DNA of 64,000 nucleotides, taken from positions 124,001 through 188,000 of the forward strand of contig CALKFG010000004.1 of assembly GCA_938084575.1 (NCBI GenBank), given 5' to 3'. Positions 1,268 to 9,318 of this stretch are shown one piece after another. Position numbers and translations under genes: made by a program. The notes below the pieces were generated by a model, which ran no database searches, was not told the DNA's origin, and saw only the letters and a program-made list of their open reading frames with translations. The first letter of the stretch is position 1. Each line of letters starts with the position of its first letter. Origin of the DNA: an uncultured Hyphomonadaceae bacterium (GTDB lineage: Bacteria > Pseudomonadota > Alphaproteobacteria > Caulobacterales > Hyphomonadaceae).

Positions 1268-1355
1268 GGATCCGGCAGGGGCACAGAGTGCCGGGCGGAT
1301 CATCCTGACAAGGGTTCTTGCGCTCCCCGGCAAGGCGACGTAAAGGAGCCGCTGT

Positions 1356-1431
1356 GCCCCTATAGCTCAGCTGGTAGAGCAACTGATTTGTAATCAGTAG
1401 GTCCGCGGTTCGAGTCCGTGTGGGGGCACCA
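1356..1431 (+). tRNA. tRNA-Thr (anticodon TGT)
   Basis: A 76-nt cloverleaf with 7-bp acceptor stem GCCCCTA/TGGGGGC, D-loop TAGCTCAGCTGGTAGAGCA, anticodon stem ACTGA/TCAGT around loop TTTGTAA (anticodon TGT), T-arm with GGTTCGAGTCC, and an encoded CCA at 1429-1431. An integrase relic lies on its 3' side. Confidence 0.97.
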
Positions 1432-1551
1432 TCAACCCGTCCGGCGTGATCCGGGGTGCTCAGAAAAACCAATCAAAAACAGTTTACTAAAGGTTTCTGG
1501 ATGTCGGACTGTCGGGGTCTGTCCAAGGGTAAACAGTGTTGTCCGTGCAAA

Positions 1552-1570
1552 TTGTGGGTGTATTTGTGGG
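1552..1570 (+). repeat. Two TTGTGGG repeats, possible integrase arm sites
   Basis: TTGTGGG occurs at 1552-1558 and 1564-1570, twelve bases apart, between the tRNA-Thr 3' end and the integrase relic. Repeats of this type often precede P4-like integrase genes at tRNA sites; assignment as arm-binding sites is inference. Confidence 0.4.
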
Positions 1571-1628
1571 CCTGTTTCGGGGGTGTTTTGCGAGCCTCTG
1601 AGTGATCCCCAACGCCCATGGATGTGCC

Positions 1629-1766
1629 ATGACGCTTGCCGATTCCCAGATCAGGAAGGTCCGACCGGGCGCGAAGACGATGACACAGGCCGACGGCGGG
1701 GGCACACCCCTGACCTCGCCGGCGGGGTCGCAGCCGCCATGGCCCGGGCATGTGTCCTCCCCCTGA
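1629..1766 (+). pseudogene. Relic of a P4-type tyrosine integrase (N-terminal arm-binding domain)
   Basis: A 45-codon reading frame starts MTLADSQIRKVRPGAK and continues ADGGGTPLTSPAGSQPPW. This follows the DUF4102 arm-binding domain of P4-like integrases, whose N-terminus runs roughly 'L-TD..IR..KPGAK....DG-GL-L.V.PAGSK.W'. It stops at 1764-1766, far short of the roughly 400 residues of a working integrase, and no catalytic R-H-R-Y region follows before the next gene at 1807. It lies 200 bases from the tRNA-Thr 3' end, a usual integration site. I read this as the scar of a lost island. The family match is from memory of its consensus, not a search. Confidence 0.6.
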
Positions 1767-1806
1767 CATCCCGGCCACAAGCATGGGCGAGTGGAAAAGG
1801 CAGAGG

Positions 1807-3072
1807 CTAAAAGGCGCGGCTGACAGACGCGTTTGAGCTGGGGACGGGCTCTGGCTCAATCTCTCCGAACTGGGTGACGATCGTAATGTCCCCATTGCGC
1901 TGCACCTGACCGAGGGCAATGTGCTTTGTCAGGTGCTGGTTTGCCAGCAGGCTGACTGGGCCGGCCGGGCTGTCATAGGACAGTCCGGACATGGCTGCCG
2001 ACACGGCCGCCGGCTCCAGACTGTTGGCGGCCGTCACGGCGCGGGCCCACATATGCACCATGGTATAGGCGGTGGCAGAAGGTTCGCCAATGGGCCGGTC
2101 GTCACCAAACCGGGCCTTGAATTTCTCAACAAACTCGACAGCACCGAGGGCTTCGAGGCACTGAAAGAAGCCCTGGCTGACATAGGAGCCGACAAAGTAA
2201 CGGCTGCCAAATTGCGAGATGGTGGCTTCGTCAATTGAGAAACTCACCGCGAGAAACCCGTTTTCAACGGTCATGTAACGGCGTGACAAGGCGCGGAACA
2301 GGGCCTCATTGTCATCCCCATTGACGGTGTTCAGTATTGCCCCGCCGTCTGGAAGGGCCTGGGCCATCGCGTCAATTTCTGATGCGGTCACGGCGGTTCC
2401 AAGCGGGAGATAGACTTCGCCGACCACGCGCCCGCCCGATTGCTGGATTTGCTGGGTCATGATGGCATTGGCGGTACGGGGATAGACATAGTCCGAGCCG
2501 ATCAGGAAAAAGTCTGTGATTCCCTGTTCAAACAGCCAGTTTATGGCCGGTTCGGACTGCTGGTTCGGGGTGGCGCCGAAATAAAGGACATTGTCGGCCG
2601 GCGCCTCGCCTTCATACTGGATGGGGTAGAATAACAGGCTGTCGCTGTCCTTGAAGACCGGCAGCATGGCCTTTCGGCTGGACGAGGTCCATCCGCCGAA
2701 GACGACGCTGACCTGGTCCTGTTCGACCAGGCGCTGGGCCTCCTGCGCAAACACGGCCGGATCTGACCGGCCGTCGCGTAAAAGCGGAACGAGCTTAAGC
2801 CGTTTGGAGCCAAATTGCAGACCGCCAAGGGCATTGATTTCTTCAATGGCGAGAACCTCGCCGGTTATCACGGTATCTTCAGACACCGCCATGGTGCCAC
2901 TGAGGGAATGTAACAGCCCGACGGGAATTTCACCCTGGAAGGTGTAGCGGGGTTGTTCCTCGGCTCTGGTGCACGCGGCCAGAGTCAGGCTGGCGGTGGC
3001 GAACACCGCCAGACTCTGGATCACGGTCCGGGTCATATATCGCAGGACGGAAGGGTTCTTGGCAGGTGTCAT
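1807..3072 (-). CDS. UrtA/AmiC-like periplasmic ligand-binding lipoprotein
   Basis: A 421-residue type I periplasmic binding protein. The N-terminus has a lipoprotein signal ending LTLAAC (lipidated Cys about residue 34), then the start of the ligand-binding fold, IPVGLLHSLSGTMAVSED, EEINALGG, and VVFGGWTSSSRKAMLPV, all as in urea/short-amide binding proteins (UrtA, AmiC). The usual partners, permease and ATPase genes of a urea or branched-chain ABC transporter, are absent. Instead its start codon shares one base with the stop of the ion-channel gene upstream (TAATG at 3074-3070), so the two are almost surely translated together. I infer it is a sensor that presents a ligand to, or modulates, the channel. 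The ligand is unknown; an amide, urea or amino acid would fit the family. An alternative start is ATG at 3036. Confidence 0.85.
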   Translation of the reverse strand: MTPAKNPSVLRYMTRTVIQSLAVFATASLTLAACTRAEEQPRYTFQGEIPVGLLHSLSGTMAVSEDTVITGEVLAIEEINALGGLQFGSKRLKLVPLLRDGRSDPAVFAQEAQRLVEQDQVSVVFGGWTSSSRKAMLPVFKDSDSLLFYPIQYEGEAPADNVLYFGATPNQQSEPAINWLFEQGITDFFLIGSDYVYPRTANAIMTQQIQQSGGRVVGEVYLPLGTAVTASEIDAMAQALPDGGAILNTVNGDDNEALFRALSRRYMTVENGFLAVSFSIDEATISQFGSRYFVGSYVSQGFFQCLEALGAVEFVEKFKARFGDDRPIGEPSATAYTMVHMWARAVTAANSLEPAAVSAAMSGLSYDSPAGPVSLLANQHLTKHIALGQVQRNGDITIVTQFGEIEPEPVPSSNASVSRAF

Positions 3073-4193
3073 TATGCAGTTCCCCGCATCAGGGCCCAAA
3101 TCACGGTCGCGAGGATGGCAGACGACAGGACTGCCAGGCCACGATCCAGTTTTATAATGGTTTTTTCGTTACCATAGGACTGAAAGTGCAAATGGGTGAA
3201 CAGGGATTCCACGGTCGCAACGGAAATATAGAACAGGATGGCGATGTGAATCTTGTCGGTCAGGGTGACGGTGGTCAACTCGCCGAAGGTTTCAGTCGAC
3301 TGGCGCATGCTCAACACGACCGCGAACACCGAACCCGCGATCAGACCGAATCTCGGGCTGAGGGCTGAGCCGTTGTTCAGAGGAAGAAAATAGGCTGTGC
3401 AGGCCAGCCCTGCAGCCGCCAGCGCTGTGGCCATCATTTTCCAGAAGCCGGAAGTCGAAGTGCGCCGTGCGGTAATGGTCAGTTCCAGCTCCGGGACTTC
3501 CAGCTCGTTGAACTCTGCGCCCGCGGGATGTCCCAGGCTGGACGGGTAAATCTTCCGGGTGGCATAGGCTGCCGCGCCGGTAATGTCCCAGCCGGGAATG
3601 ACGATGTCGGGATCGATCACCTTCTGGACGCTGCTGCCAATGAACCGCACAGAGCGGTATTCGGTGTCTTTCAGGTCGAGATTCACGTTCAGGGTTTGCT
3701 GGTCATAGGGATAATTCTGGACCTCCCAGACATGACTTAGCCGGGCTTCGATGAACCGCCGGTGGATGATGCGTTCATTGGCCTGGGGAAAGGACCGGTC
3801 CTCCTGGAGCAGGATTTCCTTGGAGCCGAGGACCCGCATCGCCTCGAGATGATTGGGCTTGTCGACGTCTGTCTCATACCAGACATAGAAGGAGATACGG
3901 AAACTCTGCTCAATATCATCAAACTCACCAAGATCGGAGATCAGGACATTGGCGGTGAGATATTCCGGTCCGGTTGACGCGGCGGCCAGCATCGGACCGG
4001 CGCCCAGTGCGGCAAGGCTGGCCAGTGCGGCAAGGCTGGCCAGTGCGCGCCGAACCAGACGGTCTCGGAAGCCAAATCGGCCAATCGTCAGGCCTGCGCG
4101 CCTCATTTGACGTCCCATCCAGGTCAGAGGGGCCCGCCCGACTGCCTGAAGTCTCACGCCGCGCGCGACGTGTCGTTGCCTGTTCGATCGCAT
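3072..4193 (-). CDS. Pentameric ligand-gated ion channel (prokaryotic Cys-loop receptor)
   Basis: 373 residues from the first ATG. After a signal peptide (about residues 46-72) comes the extracellular beta-sandwich: ISDLGEFDDIEQSFRISFYV and VWYET match the beta1-beta2 region, and YPYDQQTL at 161-168 is the Cys-loop hallmark (prokaryotic form without the cysteines). Four membrane helices follow at about 250-271, 281-297, 312-334 and 349-370, the arrangement seen in GLIC and ELIC. Pentameric channels of this family gate ions across the inner membrane on ligand or proton binding; the ligand and ion selectivity here are unknown. Translation is coupled to the binding-protein gene downstream. ATGs at 4118 and 4106 are alternative starts; none has a strong ribosome site. 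The signal peptide is encoded partly by an 18-bp tandem repeat. Confidence 0.85.
   Translation of the reverse strand: MRSNRQRHVARGVRLQAVGRAPLTWMGRQMRRAGLTIGRFGFRDRLVRRALASLAALASLAALGAGPMLAAASTGPEYLTANVLISDLGEFDDIEQSFRISFYVWYETDVDKPNHLEAMRVLGSKEILLQEDRSFPQANERIIHRRFIEARLSHVWEVQNYPYDQQTLNVNLDLKDTEYRSVRFIGSSVQKVIDPDIVIPGWDITGAAAYATRKIYPSSLGHPAGAEFNELEVPELELTITARRTSTSGFWKMMATALAAAGLACTAYFLPLNNGSALSPRFGLIAGSVFAVVLSMRQSTETFGELTTVTLTDKIHIAILFYISVATVESLFTHLHFQSYGNEKTIIKLDRGLAVLSSAILATVIWALMRGTA
4005..4047. repeat. 18-bp tandem repeat inside the channel signal peptide
   Basis: CAGTGCGGCAAGGCTGGC occurs at 4005-4022 and again at 4023-4040, with a third partial copy to 4047. In the channel protein it encodes the repeated hydrophobic ALASLA units. 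Copy-number change by slippage would keep the frame and alter only signal-peptide length. Confidence 0.85.
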
Positions 4194-4250
4194 ATCACTC
4201 TGCCCACCCCGGCGGAGACCGCCAATCTCCTGCTTTTAACCCTACGGGAT

Positions 4251-4279
4251 CAGGTGACAAGAAAAATACGCGTCACCTG
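4251..4279. promoter_or_regulatory. Perfect inverted repeat, candidate operator
   Basis: CAGGTGAC at 4251-4258 and GTCACCTG at 4272-4279 form a perfect 8-bp dyad with a 13-bp AT-rich spacer. Half-site centres are 21 bp apart, two helical turns, as for a dimeric repressor or activator. It lies between the divergent channel operon and rhodanese gene, so could control either. Confidence 0.5.
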
Positions 4280-4363
4280 TCGGGTCGCTGAGAGACGCCC
4301 GGACCCGGTGGCGCTTGGCGTTCAGGACCGAACCGGGTTAGGTGTCCGGGAAGGAGAGCGCTG

Positions 4364-4798
4364 ATGTTAAAACCGATTGTCCTGAGTTTTTTCGCAGTCC
4401 TGCTGGCCCTGGACTCCAGGGCGGGCGAGACGATTGCCGCCGATAAAGCCTACCGGTCCGCTCAAAGCGGGGATCTGGTTCTGGTGGATGTCCGCACCGA
4501 GGCCGAGTGGCGCGCAACCGGCTTACCCGCCGGCAGTCTCGGCATTCCGCTTCAGGACGATGATTTCGTTCAGCAGGTTCTCGTCGCGGTCAAGGGCGAC
4601 AGGACGCAGCCGGTTGCCGTGATTTGCCGGACCGGCGGGCGTTCGGAGCACGCGATGAACCGTCTGGAAGCGGCGGGGTTCAGCCAGGTTTACAATGTCG
4701 CCGAAGGTCTGTTCGGACGCCCGGGCGCCGGTCCGGGATGGCGGGCGCGCGCGCTTCCTCTGGGGTCCCCCGGCCGGCCTAACCGAGGGTCTGAATGA
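4364..4798 (+). CDS. Secreted single-domain rhodanese
   Basis: A 144-residue protein with a signal peptide (residues 1-20, ending DSRAGETIA) and one rhodanese domain. DVRTEAEW near residue 42 and the active-site loop CRTGGRS near residue 86 are the family signature; the Cys carries the transferred sulfur. Rhodaneses move sulfane sulfur to acceptors such as cyanide or thiols; this one would work in the periplasm. The start at 4364 has GGAAGGAGAG just upstream. Its last 20 bases overlap a small gene on the other strand. It is divergent from the ion-channel operon and shares the intergenic palindrome. Confidence 0.85.
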   Translation: MLKPIVLSFFAVLLALDSRAGETIAADKAYRSAQSGDLVLVDVRTEAEWRATGLPAGSLGIPLQDDDFVQQVLVAVKGDRTQPVAVICRTGGRSEHAMNRLEAAGFSQVYNVAEGLFGRPGAGPGWRARALPLGSPGRPNRGSE

Positions 4799-6768: not shown

Positions 6769-9318
6769 ATGAATCTCGATATTGCAAGCACAGCGCTCTT
6801 GGCCCAGATGGCTGCCGCTGAAGGGCCGGCCCTGACCGATCTGCCGGTGGAGGAAGCCCGTCTGGTCGGCGCCGCCATGGCCGAGGCCTATCCTGAAGGG
6901 CCGGACATGGCGGAAGTGCGGGACGTCCGGATTCCGGCACGGGATGGTGACACCATCAGAGCCCGGCTGCTTCGCCCGAGAGATGAGATTACCGGTGTCC
7001 TTGTTTTTTATCATGGCGGTGGCTGGGTTCTGTCGGACATCGACCAGTATGACACGGTCGGCCGTCAACTGGCGGCACGGACCGGATGCAGCGTCCTGAT
7101 GGTCGATTATCGCAAGGCCCCGGAACACCGTTTCCCAAAGGCCGTTCATGATGCCTGGGATGCTCTGGTCTGGGCACAGGAGACTCTGGTTGCAGATACC
7201 GGCTGCCCGCTTTTGGTCGCGGGCGACAGCGCCGGCGGCAATCTTGCGGCTGTGATGTGCCTTAAGGCCAAAGCCGCCTCTGGGCCCGACATTGCCTTGC
7301 AGGTCCTGATTTATCCGGTGTGCGACGGCGCCATGGATACGCCGGGCTATGCCGATCCGAACAACCAGCTGTTGCTGAACACGCCGGTGATGCAGTGGTT
7401 CTGGGATCAATATGCCCCCGAGGCCGCCGACAGGCTTCACCCGGATGCCGCGCCGTTGCGTGCGGACGATTTGTCCGGCCTGCCGCCGGCCCTCGTGATC
7501 ACAGCGGAGTTCGACATTCTGCGCGACGAAGTTGAGGCCTATGCTGATCGGCTGCGGGCGGCTGGCGTTGAGGTGACCTACAAGCAGTTTGACCGGCAGA
7601 TGCACAATTTCTTCGCCATGCCGGGACTGTTGCCCGCTCAGGAAAAGGCGATCGACTATATTGGGAGCCAAATTGACCGCCGCCTTGCCCGTGGATCGGT
7701 TATGGATGTGGTCATCGTCGGCGCCGGGTTCGCCGGCCTGTACCAGCTGCACAAGCTGCGCAAGATGGGGTTAAAAGTCCGCGTCATTGAAGCCGGAGAC
7801 GGGGTCGGCGGAACCTGGTACTGGAACCGTTATCCGGGGGCCCGCTGCGACATTGAAAGCATGGCCTATTCGTTTGGGTTTTCGCCGGAACTTGAGCAGG
7901 ACTGGGTGTGGTCAGAGAAATATGCCACGCAGCCGGAAATTCTTCGCTATGCCGAACACGTGGCCGACCGGTTTGACCTGCGCAAGGACATCACCTTCGA
8001 GGCGCGTGTCACGCGGGCAATCTTCGATGAGGATGAAACCCGGTGGCAGGTCTATACCGACCGCGGGGAGGTCATCACCGCGCAGCATGTGATCATGGCC
8101 ACCGGCTGCCTGTCCGCGCCGAAGACACCGGACATTGAAGGGGCAGACTCGTTTCAGGGTCCGACTTATGTCACCGGGCTCTGGCCGAAAGACGGGGTGG
8201 ATTTCAGCGGCCAACGCGTTGCCGTCATCGGAACCGGCTCATCGGCGATCCAGTCAGTTCCGCTGATTGCGGAACAGGCGGCAGAACTGACCGTCTATCA
8301 AAGAACACCGGCCTATTCCCTGCCGGCTGGAAACCGGCCGCTGACAAATTCCGAAGTGGTGGAGATGAAGGCGCAATACCCGTCTTTCCGAGAAGCCCAG
8401 AAATATCACCCGGCGGGCATCCCGAACCCGCCCCGCGTCATGCAGTCTGCGCATGAGGCGACGGAGGAGGAACGCCTGGCCAAATATGAGGCCGGCTGGG
8501 ACACCGGCATTCTGACGGCCCTGTCAGCGGCCTATTCCGACACCCTGTCGGATCAGCAGGCCAATGACTGGGTATCCGACTTTATCCGCGACAAGATCCG
8601 GGCGCGTGTCGATGATCCCGATCTGGCCGAGCTGCTTGTTCCCACATCCTATCCCTTCGGGACCAAGCGGCCCTGCCTCGATACGAATTACTTTGAAACC
8701 TTCAATCAGGACCATGTCAGCCTGGTGAATCTGAAAAAGACGCCCATCGCGTGCATCACCCCGCAGGGCGTCCGCACGTCGGAAGGTGAAAAGCCCTATG
8801 ACGCGATTGTTTTTGCCACAGGGTTCGACGCGATGACCGGGGCGATCATGCGAGTCGATATCCGCGGCAAGGGTGGCCAGGCTCTGAAAGACAAATGGGT
8901 CGACGGACCCCACACCTATCTCGGCGTGGCGATTGCCGGCTTCCCGAACTTCTTCACCATTACCGGACCGTCCAGCCCATCGGTCCTGTCAAATATGATG
9001 GTCTCGATCGAGCAGCATGTTGACTGGGTGAGCGATTGTATTGGCTGGATGCAGGCGCAGGGTCTGCAGACCATTGAGGCCACAGCCGAGGCTGAGGATG
9101 AATGGGCCGCCCACAATGAGGCCATGGCCAATATGACCTTGTTCCCGCAGGCTGACAGCTGGTATATCGGTGCAAATGTTCCCGGCAAGCCACGGACCTT
9201 TATGGCCTATATTGGTGGGGTGGATGTCTATCGGGTGATCTGCGACCAGATCGCGGCGTCGGGATATGATGGATTTCGGGTGTCTGCCCCCGCCATCGCC
9301 GAGAGCCACGCAGCCTGA
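6769..9318 (+). CDS. Fusion: HSL-type esterase + Baeyer-Villiger monooxygenase-like flavoprotein
   Basis: One 849-residue frame joins two enzymes. Residues 1-305 are an HSL-family alpha/beta hydrolase: oxyanion motif HGGG at 82-85, nucleophile GDSAGG (Ser154), and likely Asp249 (EFDILRDE) and His279 (MHNF). Residues 312-840 match phenylacetone/cyclohexanone monooxygenase throughout: FAD site GAGFAG at 318-323, GTWYWNRYPGARCD, NADPH site GTGSSAIQ, and C-terminal SWYIGANVPGKPR. Baeyer-Villiger enzymes insert oxygen next to a ketone to give an ester, and the fused esterase could hydrolyse that product. The fingerprint F-x-G-x3-H-x3-W reads FQGPTYVTGLWP: the conserved His is Val468 (codon GTC at 8170-8172), so classic activity is doubtful. 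The start has GGAGG upstream. Cytoplasmic; no signal peptide. Confidence 0.9.
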   Translation: MNLDIASTALLAQMAAAEGPALTDLPVEEARLVGAAMAEAYPEGPDMAEVRDVRIPARDGDTIRARLLRPRDEITGVLVFYHGGGWVLSDIDQYDTVGRQLAARTGCSVLMVDYRKAPEHRFPKAVHDAWDALVWAQETLVADTGCPLLVAGDSAGGNLAAVMCLKAKAASGPDIALQVLIYPVCDGAMDTPGYADPNNQLLLNTPVMQWFWDQYAPEAADRLHPDAAPLRADDLSGLPPALVITAEFDILRDEVEAYADRLRAAGVEVTYKQFDRQMHNFFAMPGLLPAQEKAIDYIGSQIDRRLARGSVMDVVIVGAGFAGLYQLHKLRKMGLKVRVIEAGDGVGGTWYWNRYPGARCDIESMAYSFGFSPELEQDWVWSEKYATQPEILRYAEHVADRFDLRKDITFEARVTRAIFDEDETRWQVYTDRGEVITAQHVIMATGCLSAPKTPDIEGADSFQGPTYVTGLWPKDGVDFSGQRVAVIGTGSSAIQSVPLIAEQAAELTVYQRTPAYSLPAGNRPLTNSEVVEMKAQYPSFREAQKYHPAGIPNPPRVMQSAHEATEEERLAKYEAGWDTGILTALSAAYSDTLSDQQANDWVSDFIRDKIRARVDDPDLAELLVPTSYPFGTKRPCLDTNYFETFNQDHVSLVNLKKTPIACITPQGVRTSEGEKPYDAIVFATGFDAMTGAIMRVDIRGKGGQALKDKWVDGPHTYLGVAIAGFPNFFTITGPSSPSVLSNMMVSIEQHVDWVSDCIGWMQAQGLQTIEATAEAEDEWAAHNEAMANMTLFPQADSWYIGANVPGKPRTFMAYIGGVDVYRVICDQIAASGYDGFRVSAPAIAESHAA

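Follow-up and report, generated by a model that had tools for sequence, protein, structure and literature searches.

A pentameric channel gene overlapping a UrtA-like lipoprotein gene in Hyphomonadaceae: a candidate two-gene urea sensor

Does an ion channel gene whose stop codon overlaps the start codon of a periplasmic binding protein gene encode one half of a sensor? This question is raised by a gene pair in a stretch of 64,000 nucleotides from an uncultured Hyphomonadaceae genome, which will be referred to as the window. In ionotropic glutamate receptors a ligand sensor of the periplasmic-binding (PBP) fold controls an ion channel, although within a single chain and with a pore family unrelated to the pentameric channels. 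The original prediction for this locus drew on that parallel and proposed a two-part sensor as a distinct way of gating. The parallel can be kept, but a closer one exists inside the channel's own superfamily, since passages of Tasneem et al. 2004 (PMC549065) describe PBP-I domains fused to such channels in alphaproteobacteria as well as stand-alone PBP-II or Cache genes beside other channels. These partners were proposed there to concentrate or sense the channel ligand in chemotaxis. The theme of a two-part sensor is thus found already in that work, the claim of a distinct way of gating finds no support as worded, and the concept of a PBP-assisted channel is prior art. According to the accessible part of the survey by Jaiteh et al. 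2016 (PMC4795631), the in vivo biological roles of the microbial family members are unstudied, and the words periplasmic, operon and PBP are absent from its main text as available to us. Apart from the theme set by Tasneem et al., searches of open-licence PMC papers yielded no account of a UrtA-like or urea-type partner beside such a channel.

The overlapping genes and their products

Both genes lie on the minus strand, the gene for the pentameric ligand-gated ion channel subunit (3072..4193; 373 amino acids counted from the first ATG, the true start being uncertain) preceding that of the UrtA-like binding lipoprotein (1807..3072; 421 amino acids). At the coupling junction (3070..3085, minus strand), the channel stop codon TAA (3072-3074) and the lipoprotein ATG (3070-3072) have base 3072 in common, resulting in the sequence TAATG, and a GGGGAA motif (3080-3085) is located 8-13 nt 5′ of the ATG. 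Junction, strand and both reading frames are therefore as originally described. Upstream of the pair a rhodanese gene (4364-4798) is transcribed divergently; on the downstream side lie the gene for tRNA-Thr (1356-1431), one for a DUF1761 protein and a frame read as metG. Beyond the pair no further convincing gene was seen on the minus strand between 1430 and 4363. Scanning 1430-4380 for the sigma-70 consensus yielded no promoter-like site on this strand and two terminator-like sites, one within each gene, though such scans are weakly informative either way.

The channel sequence alone gave no match to Pfam or NCBIfam at 1e-3, and reached an E-value of only 0.007 against GLIC chains. A profile built from 14 rows (the channel and 13 relatives) matched chains of GLIC and ELIC type over the full length with E-values of 1e-25 to 1e-23, the PDB entries concerned being taken as GLIC and ELIC. 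A signal peptide was read from the sequence at approximately residues 44-71. The Pro-loop motif YPYD (3702..3713, minus strand; residues 161-164) contains P162 and D164, both invariant in the 14 rows, as is R244, the arginine before M1; the arginine of M2 is aligned as well. An AlphaFold2 model calculated from 12 sequences, with a low mean pLDDT of 61, shows four long helices next to a half dominated by beta structure. Its best PDB matches were chains of the GABA-A receptor, the glycine receptor and GLIC (E ~1e-15, TM-score only 0.38-0.46), so that the model supports the fold class only. The loop as read from the sequence contains no cysteine, and the disulfide of the animal members is thus absent. 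Of the earlier description as a Cys-loop-type channel, the pentameric channel with a Pro-loop and, in the low-confidence model, four helices stands, whereas the label itself is loose.

The predicted pore helix M2, SPRFGLIAGSVFAVVLSMRQ (3300..3359, minus strand; residues 279-298), has no Glu directly before the 0′ Arg. The best PDB match is a chimera of GLIC and the glycine receptor, and in the profile alignment the start of M2, SPRFGL, is placed on PARVGL of this chain. In animal channels an acidic residue (Glu) at this position is associated with cation selectivity. Judged by this residue, the channel is perhaps anion-permeable or poorly selective.

The second product was confirmed as a UrtA-like binding lipoprotein: it matches Peripla_BP_5 of Pfam with an E-value of 6.5e-108, a lipobox L-A-A-C (2971..2982, minus strand; residues 31-34) was read from the sequence, and its nearest relatives of solved structure bear the name of urea-binding proteins. 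Against the UrtA model of NCBIfam (TIGR03407) it scores 388.1 bits, below the cut-off of 492.75; the binding protein of a second genome of the genus that contains the pair (G024) scores 387.2 bits. The lipid anchor is not a distinctive trait, as the transport-type UrtA of another genome of the family (G033), which is followed by frames read as urtB and urtC, also has one. The stop/start overlap, the same arrangement in the second genome, and the fact that the lipoprotein is the sole Peripla_BP_5 protein found in its assembly together argue that the pairing goes beyond chance.

The urea-type pocket and the host genome

The available text of a study on Prochlorococcus UrtA (JBC 2023, PMC10392092; PDB 8hic) describes a urea site of eight conserved residues, mutation of which abolishes or lowers binding, and terms a ninth residue, F192, not key. 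The window lipoprotein is 45% identical to this UrtA and retains all eight residues (W120, S122, Y141, Q144, E146, Y190, N246 and S274 in the numbering of that study); the position of F192 is occupied by Y, both here and in the G024 protein. The same eight residues are present in the binding proteins of G024 and of two alphaproteobacteria of another order, G415 and G793. Preservation of the complete pocket makes urea, or something very similar, the predicted ligand, which sharpens the earlier guess of a small amide or amino acid.

AmiC of Pseudomonas, a cytoplasmic regulator of AmiR, exemplifies a UrtA-like fold that serves sensing and not transport. Its pocket (PDB 1pea) differs from the urea pocket, and from that of the window lipoprotein, at four of the eight positions, and an AmiC-type amide sensor was rejected on these grounds. 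In a tree of binding proteins (17 rows, midpoint root, four of 14 inner branches well supported, with a long-branch warning), the eight rows with a full urea pocket and one fragment row share one side of the root, a weak grouping (87/92).

The original prediction had stated that no permease accompanies the binding protein, and this extends to the whole assembly (G000; 2.33 Mb, 95.97% complete): no match was obtained to PF02653, the permease family of urea and branched-chain type, which is matched in 12 of 14 control genomes. The assembly contains exactly one PF13433 (Peripla_BP_5) protein, the window lipoprotein. The reading as a urea uptake operon was rejected because the assembly yielded no PF02653 permease. 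Use of urea as food by way of urease or urea carboxylase was rejected as well. No match for urease alpha was found in G000, and the single weak match in G024 is below the cut-off; for urea carboxylase nothing exceeded the cut-off in either genome, the many partial matches to this model being read as shared carboxylase domains. Urease alpha matches are present in G415 and G793. The window lipoprotein therefore differs from UrtA in that it stays below the NCBIfam cut-off, belongs to a genome without a PF02653 permease and is encoded by a gene overlapping that of an ion channel.

Recurrence of the pair and related architectures

A single-sequence search detected the channel in three of 61 genomes near the window, namely G000, G024 and G031, the last with a channel of another kind and no PBP-I gene beside it. 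Among 29 genomes of the genus, channel and UrtA-like protein occur in the same two (G000 and G024), and neither was found in the remaining 27. A channel in a conserved neighbourhood with a stand-alone binding protein, the arrangement known from Tasneem et al., is accordingly seen in 2 of 29 genus genomes, with overlapping genes in both. G024 is an uncultured Hyphomonadaceae MAG with the pair on contig CAJXMY010000044.1, where the overlap reads ATGA instead of TAATG. Conservation beyond its own genome, on which the original prediction had staked its case, was thus observed, and the prediction is not refuted on this point.

Between the two genomes the channels are 61% and the binding proteins 64% identical. 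Nucleotide differences by codon position amount to 124/93/235 and 80/50/157 for the two genes, with an accumulation at third positions, and NG86 estimates for both are dN 0.29-0.30 with saturated dS (>2); judged by this pattern, both genes look to be under selection. At its N-terminus the G024 channel is short of approximately 107 residues; the contig ends there with a folP-like fragment, which is probably a misassembly. Downstream of the pair, G000 and G024 have different genes. G024 retains part of the rhodanese gene, an Nramp gene and the next gene in the order of the window, on another short contig. This shared block indicates a close relationship of the two genomes, so that plain inheritance may account for the pair in both. 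The Nramp gene near the pair is found in 23 of the 29 genus genomes; in seven of these, approximately 6 kb upstream were read and contained neither the tRNA-Thr gene nor the upstream genes of the window, and an empty insertion site was not found.

A second pairing was observed in G415 and G793, in which a Cache-type channel is followed by a UrtA-like protein. The G415 channel carries a dCache-like region below the Pfam cut-off; the channel profile covers the extracellular portion of this protein and reaches no further than the beginning of M1, the later helices being read from the sequence. Its UrtA-like neighbour scores 505 bits against PF13433 and narrowly exceeds the cut-off of TIGR03407 with 493.0 bits, and five further genes around the pair are not transporter parts. 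In G793 the channel part is 78% identical to that of G415 and the two genes are separated by 20 nt. Such a channel is present in two of 15 genomes of this order. The tree places the binding proteins of the two pairings in separate groups (100/100 each); at 41% identity they are roughly as distant from one another as from transport UrtA. Although the tree is weakly supported in its deeper branches, this points to a urea-type binding protein having been coupled independently to two different channel subfamilies.

To place these pairs in a wider frame, 84,980 species genomes were scanned with two narrow patterns, which more distant pairs would escape. This yielded 11 loci, of which the known G024 locus was the only close one; no PBP-I gene lies beside any of the other ten. 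Profile searches matched channels in 14 of 385 genomes of the class and 45 of 398 of the phylum, 58 different genomes with G000 in both sets. In the other 57, neighbourhoods of approximately 5 kb on each side, cut at contig ends and comprising frames of at least 100 codons, were searched with a PBP-I profile made from seven UrtA-like and related proteins. A PBP-I domain fused ahead of a membrane-reaching channel domain was found in 24 of the 58 genomes (27 frames, among them L089, which was called by Pfam, and L159 of G543, a weak case). Frame L155 of G586 was excluded from this count, as the contig end cuts it before the membrane part. Three genomes have a separate PBP-I gene near the channel (G000, G415 and G073, the partner in G073 also having a metallophosphatase domain), and in 31 the search showed no separate PBP-I gene and no PBP-I domain fused to a full channel. 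Single-chain fusions are thus commoner than the two-gene form (24/58 vs 3/58), in counts that are not independent because the genomes crowd in few families. All six fused binding domains scanned with Pfam were assigned to Peripla_BP_6, and the urea pocket is missing from the two whose residues were compared; the fusions therefore support the architecture, not the ligand.

A proposed sensory unit and its alternatives

Taken together, we consider it somewhat probable that the two genes encode one sensory unit in which a urea-binding lipoprotein acts on the channel. The unit would reside at the inner membrane and face the periplasm, a binding protein of the urea-transport type being used as a sensor without a transporter. 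The lipoprotein would close around urea and, in the closed form, either dock on the channel, a homopentamer, at its extracellular domain or hand over its ligand. Channel opening would change, so that periplasmic urea becomes an ion flux or a change in membrane voltage. Urea as the ligand, docking, whether the channel is opened or closed, its ion selectivity and the downstream response are all inferred. Elsewhere, in the fused relatives, a PBP-I domain and a channel act as one chain.

The lipoprotein might merely raise the local concentration of a ligand that is bound by the channel's own site, without any gating between proteins. Such a role was proposed for PBP and Cache partners in the passages of Tasneem et al. 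2004 (PMC549065), and the channel does retain its own extracellular domain; a scavenging protein, by our reasoning, would hold and not supply the ligand at low concentration, and the single-chain fusions fix both domains in contact, which makes this explanation unlikely. Quite unlikely, too, is that the lipoprotein has kept its role in transport, with the permease and ATPases encoded in the 4% that the assembly lacks or with an unrelated transporter being fed, and that the channel is a passenger of the operon. Its pocket is indeed that of transport UrtA and the assembly is only 96% complete, but neither a PF02653 permease nor urease alpha or urea carboxylase over the cut-off was detected, the overlap with the channel gene is kept in the second genome, and searches of the remaining 27 genomes of the genus did not detect the lipoprotein.

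That the gene order arose by chance and was passed on to two relatives without functional meaning appears very unlikely to us. The exact pair is known from two genomes only, near kin that share the block of rhodanese part, Nramp and next gene; against a meaningless neighbourhood, the overlap is kept at 61-64% identity, presence or absence of the two proteins agrees in 29 of 29 genus genomes, and a second pairing as well as many fusions exist elsewhere. We give hardly any credence to a simplified uptake system in which the channel takes the place of the ABC permease and lets urea or its ions pass passively. Its position beside the binding protein matches that of urtB in G033, and a PF02653 permease was not found, but channels of this superfamily conduct ions, and G000 and G024 show no urease alpha or urea carboxylase over the cut-off.

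Returning to the sensory unit, a bolder version of it remains tentative and is, in our estimation, rather doubtful: a urea-gated two-protein conductance, in which the urea-closed, lipid-anchored protein would be a removable agonist of a channel of the neurotransmitter-receptor type. Urea would then be purely a signal in a host without visible urea ABC uptake, urease, urea carboxylase or chemoreceptors, and the same kind of protein would have been coupled independently to a second channel subfamily. If a loaded binding protein does gate the channel, this would represent gating by a protein agonist and provide a model for how sensor domains came to be joined to ion channels.

The observation behind the original prediction was confirmed and its interpretation is partly supported; a useful advance lies in the ligand prediction and in the two-gene arrangement. 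New are the two-gene, urea-type form, the predicted ligand, and a genome without permease, urease or chemoreceptor matches. The overlap of a channel gene with that of a binding protein having a recognisable urea pocket provides a concrete candidate ligand and partner, and the window pair divides between two genes what the fusions carry in a single chain; this suggests that some bacteria open or tune such channels through a detachable sensor. The pair resembles the ART-LGIC or Pro-loop receptors in the consulted passages of Tasneem et al. in that a binding protein, fused or adjacent, serves a channel of the same superfamily. It differs in the partner, as the stand-alone proteins described there are PBP-II or Cache, whereas that of the window is a urea-type PBP-I lipoprotein with an identifiable pocket. 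The bacterial superfamily channel DeCLIC is likewise modulated by extra periplasmic domains, according to the accessible part of PMC9897478, but these are jelly rolls in the same chain, and activation occurs by calcium depletion. A further difference concerns chemotaxis, which the passages of Tasneem et al. predict for their systems. This role was considered and set aside for the window pair, as no match to the MCP signalling domain was found in G000 or G024. G415 and G793 have six and 13 MCPsignal matches, respectively, and a channel gene of Azospirillum sp. B510 has genes for CheW and MCP proteins downstream of it.

Frames weakly resembling a pentameric-channel extracellular domain, five with an MscS domain

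Eight frames of 584-1138 aa (L148, L156, L157, L158, L160, L161, L162 and L163), derived from the Pseudomonadota genomes G571, G525, G543, G466, G475, G501 and G537, matched the extracellular domain of pentameric channels weakly (22-36 bits). A periplasmic-binding-protein type I (PBP-I) domain was present in seven of these eight, and Pfam scans detected an MscS mechanosensitive-channel domain in all five frames scanned (L148, L157, L158, L160 and L163), with an additional cyclic-nucleotide-binding domain in L158. In frame L159, which was scanned by Pfam together with these five, no MscS domain was found. Apparently, sensor parts of one channel family have here been grafted onto another channel family.

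Signalling genes beside channels and binding proteins

On plasmid pAB510b of Azospirillum sp. B510 (L020), a channel of the same superfamily is encoded immediately upstream of genes for CheW, an MCP and a mechanosensitive channel. For that locus, the gene order agrees with the proposal of Tasneem et al. (2004) of a role in chemotaxis. On the Treponema saccharophilum plasmid pTS1 (L166), the gene for a UrtA-like protein that carries the complete set of eight urea-pocket residues has an adenylate/guanylate cyclase gene on one side; on the other lies a gene for a putative permease, followed by a chemoreceptor gene. The UrtA-like protein is possibly another urea-type binding protein serving signalling. 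At locus L100 of genome G073, the channel gene (303-1406) is closely followed by a downstream frame (1313-3607; both delimited from stop to stop) uniting a metallophosphatase domain with a PBP-I domain.

Further features of the G024 locus and the window

The channel frame of G024, the second genus member carrying the channel and UrtA-like pair, lies at a contig end and begins with a folP-like fragment (L002/L009), which is probably a misassembly. In the window, an 849 aa fusion of an alpha/beta hydrolase and a flavin monooxygenase-like domain is encoded at 6769-9318 (+). By-eye reading of the DNA for the predicted signal peptide of the channel revealed a short tandem duplication, ALASLAALASLAAL, at ~4012-4048.
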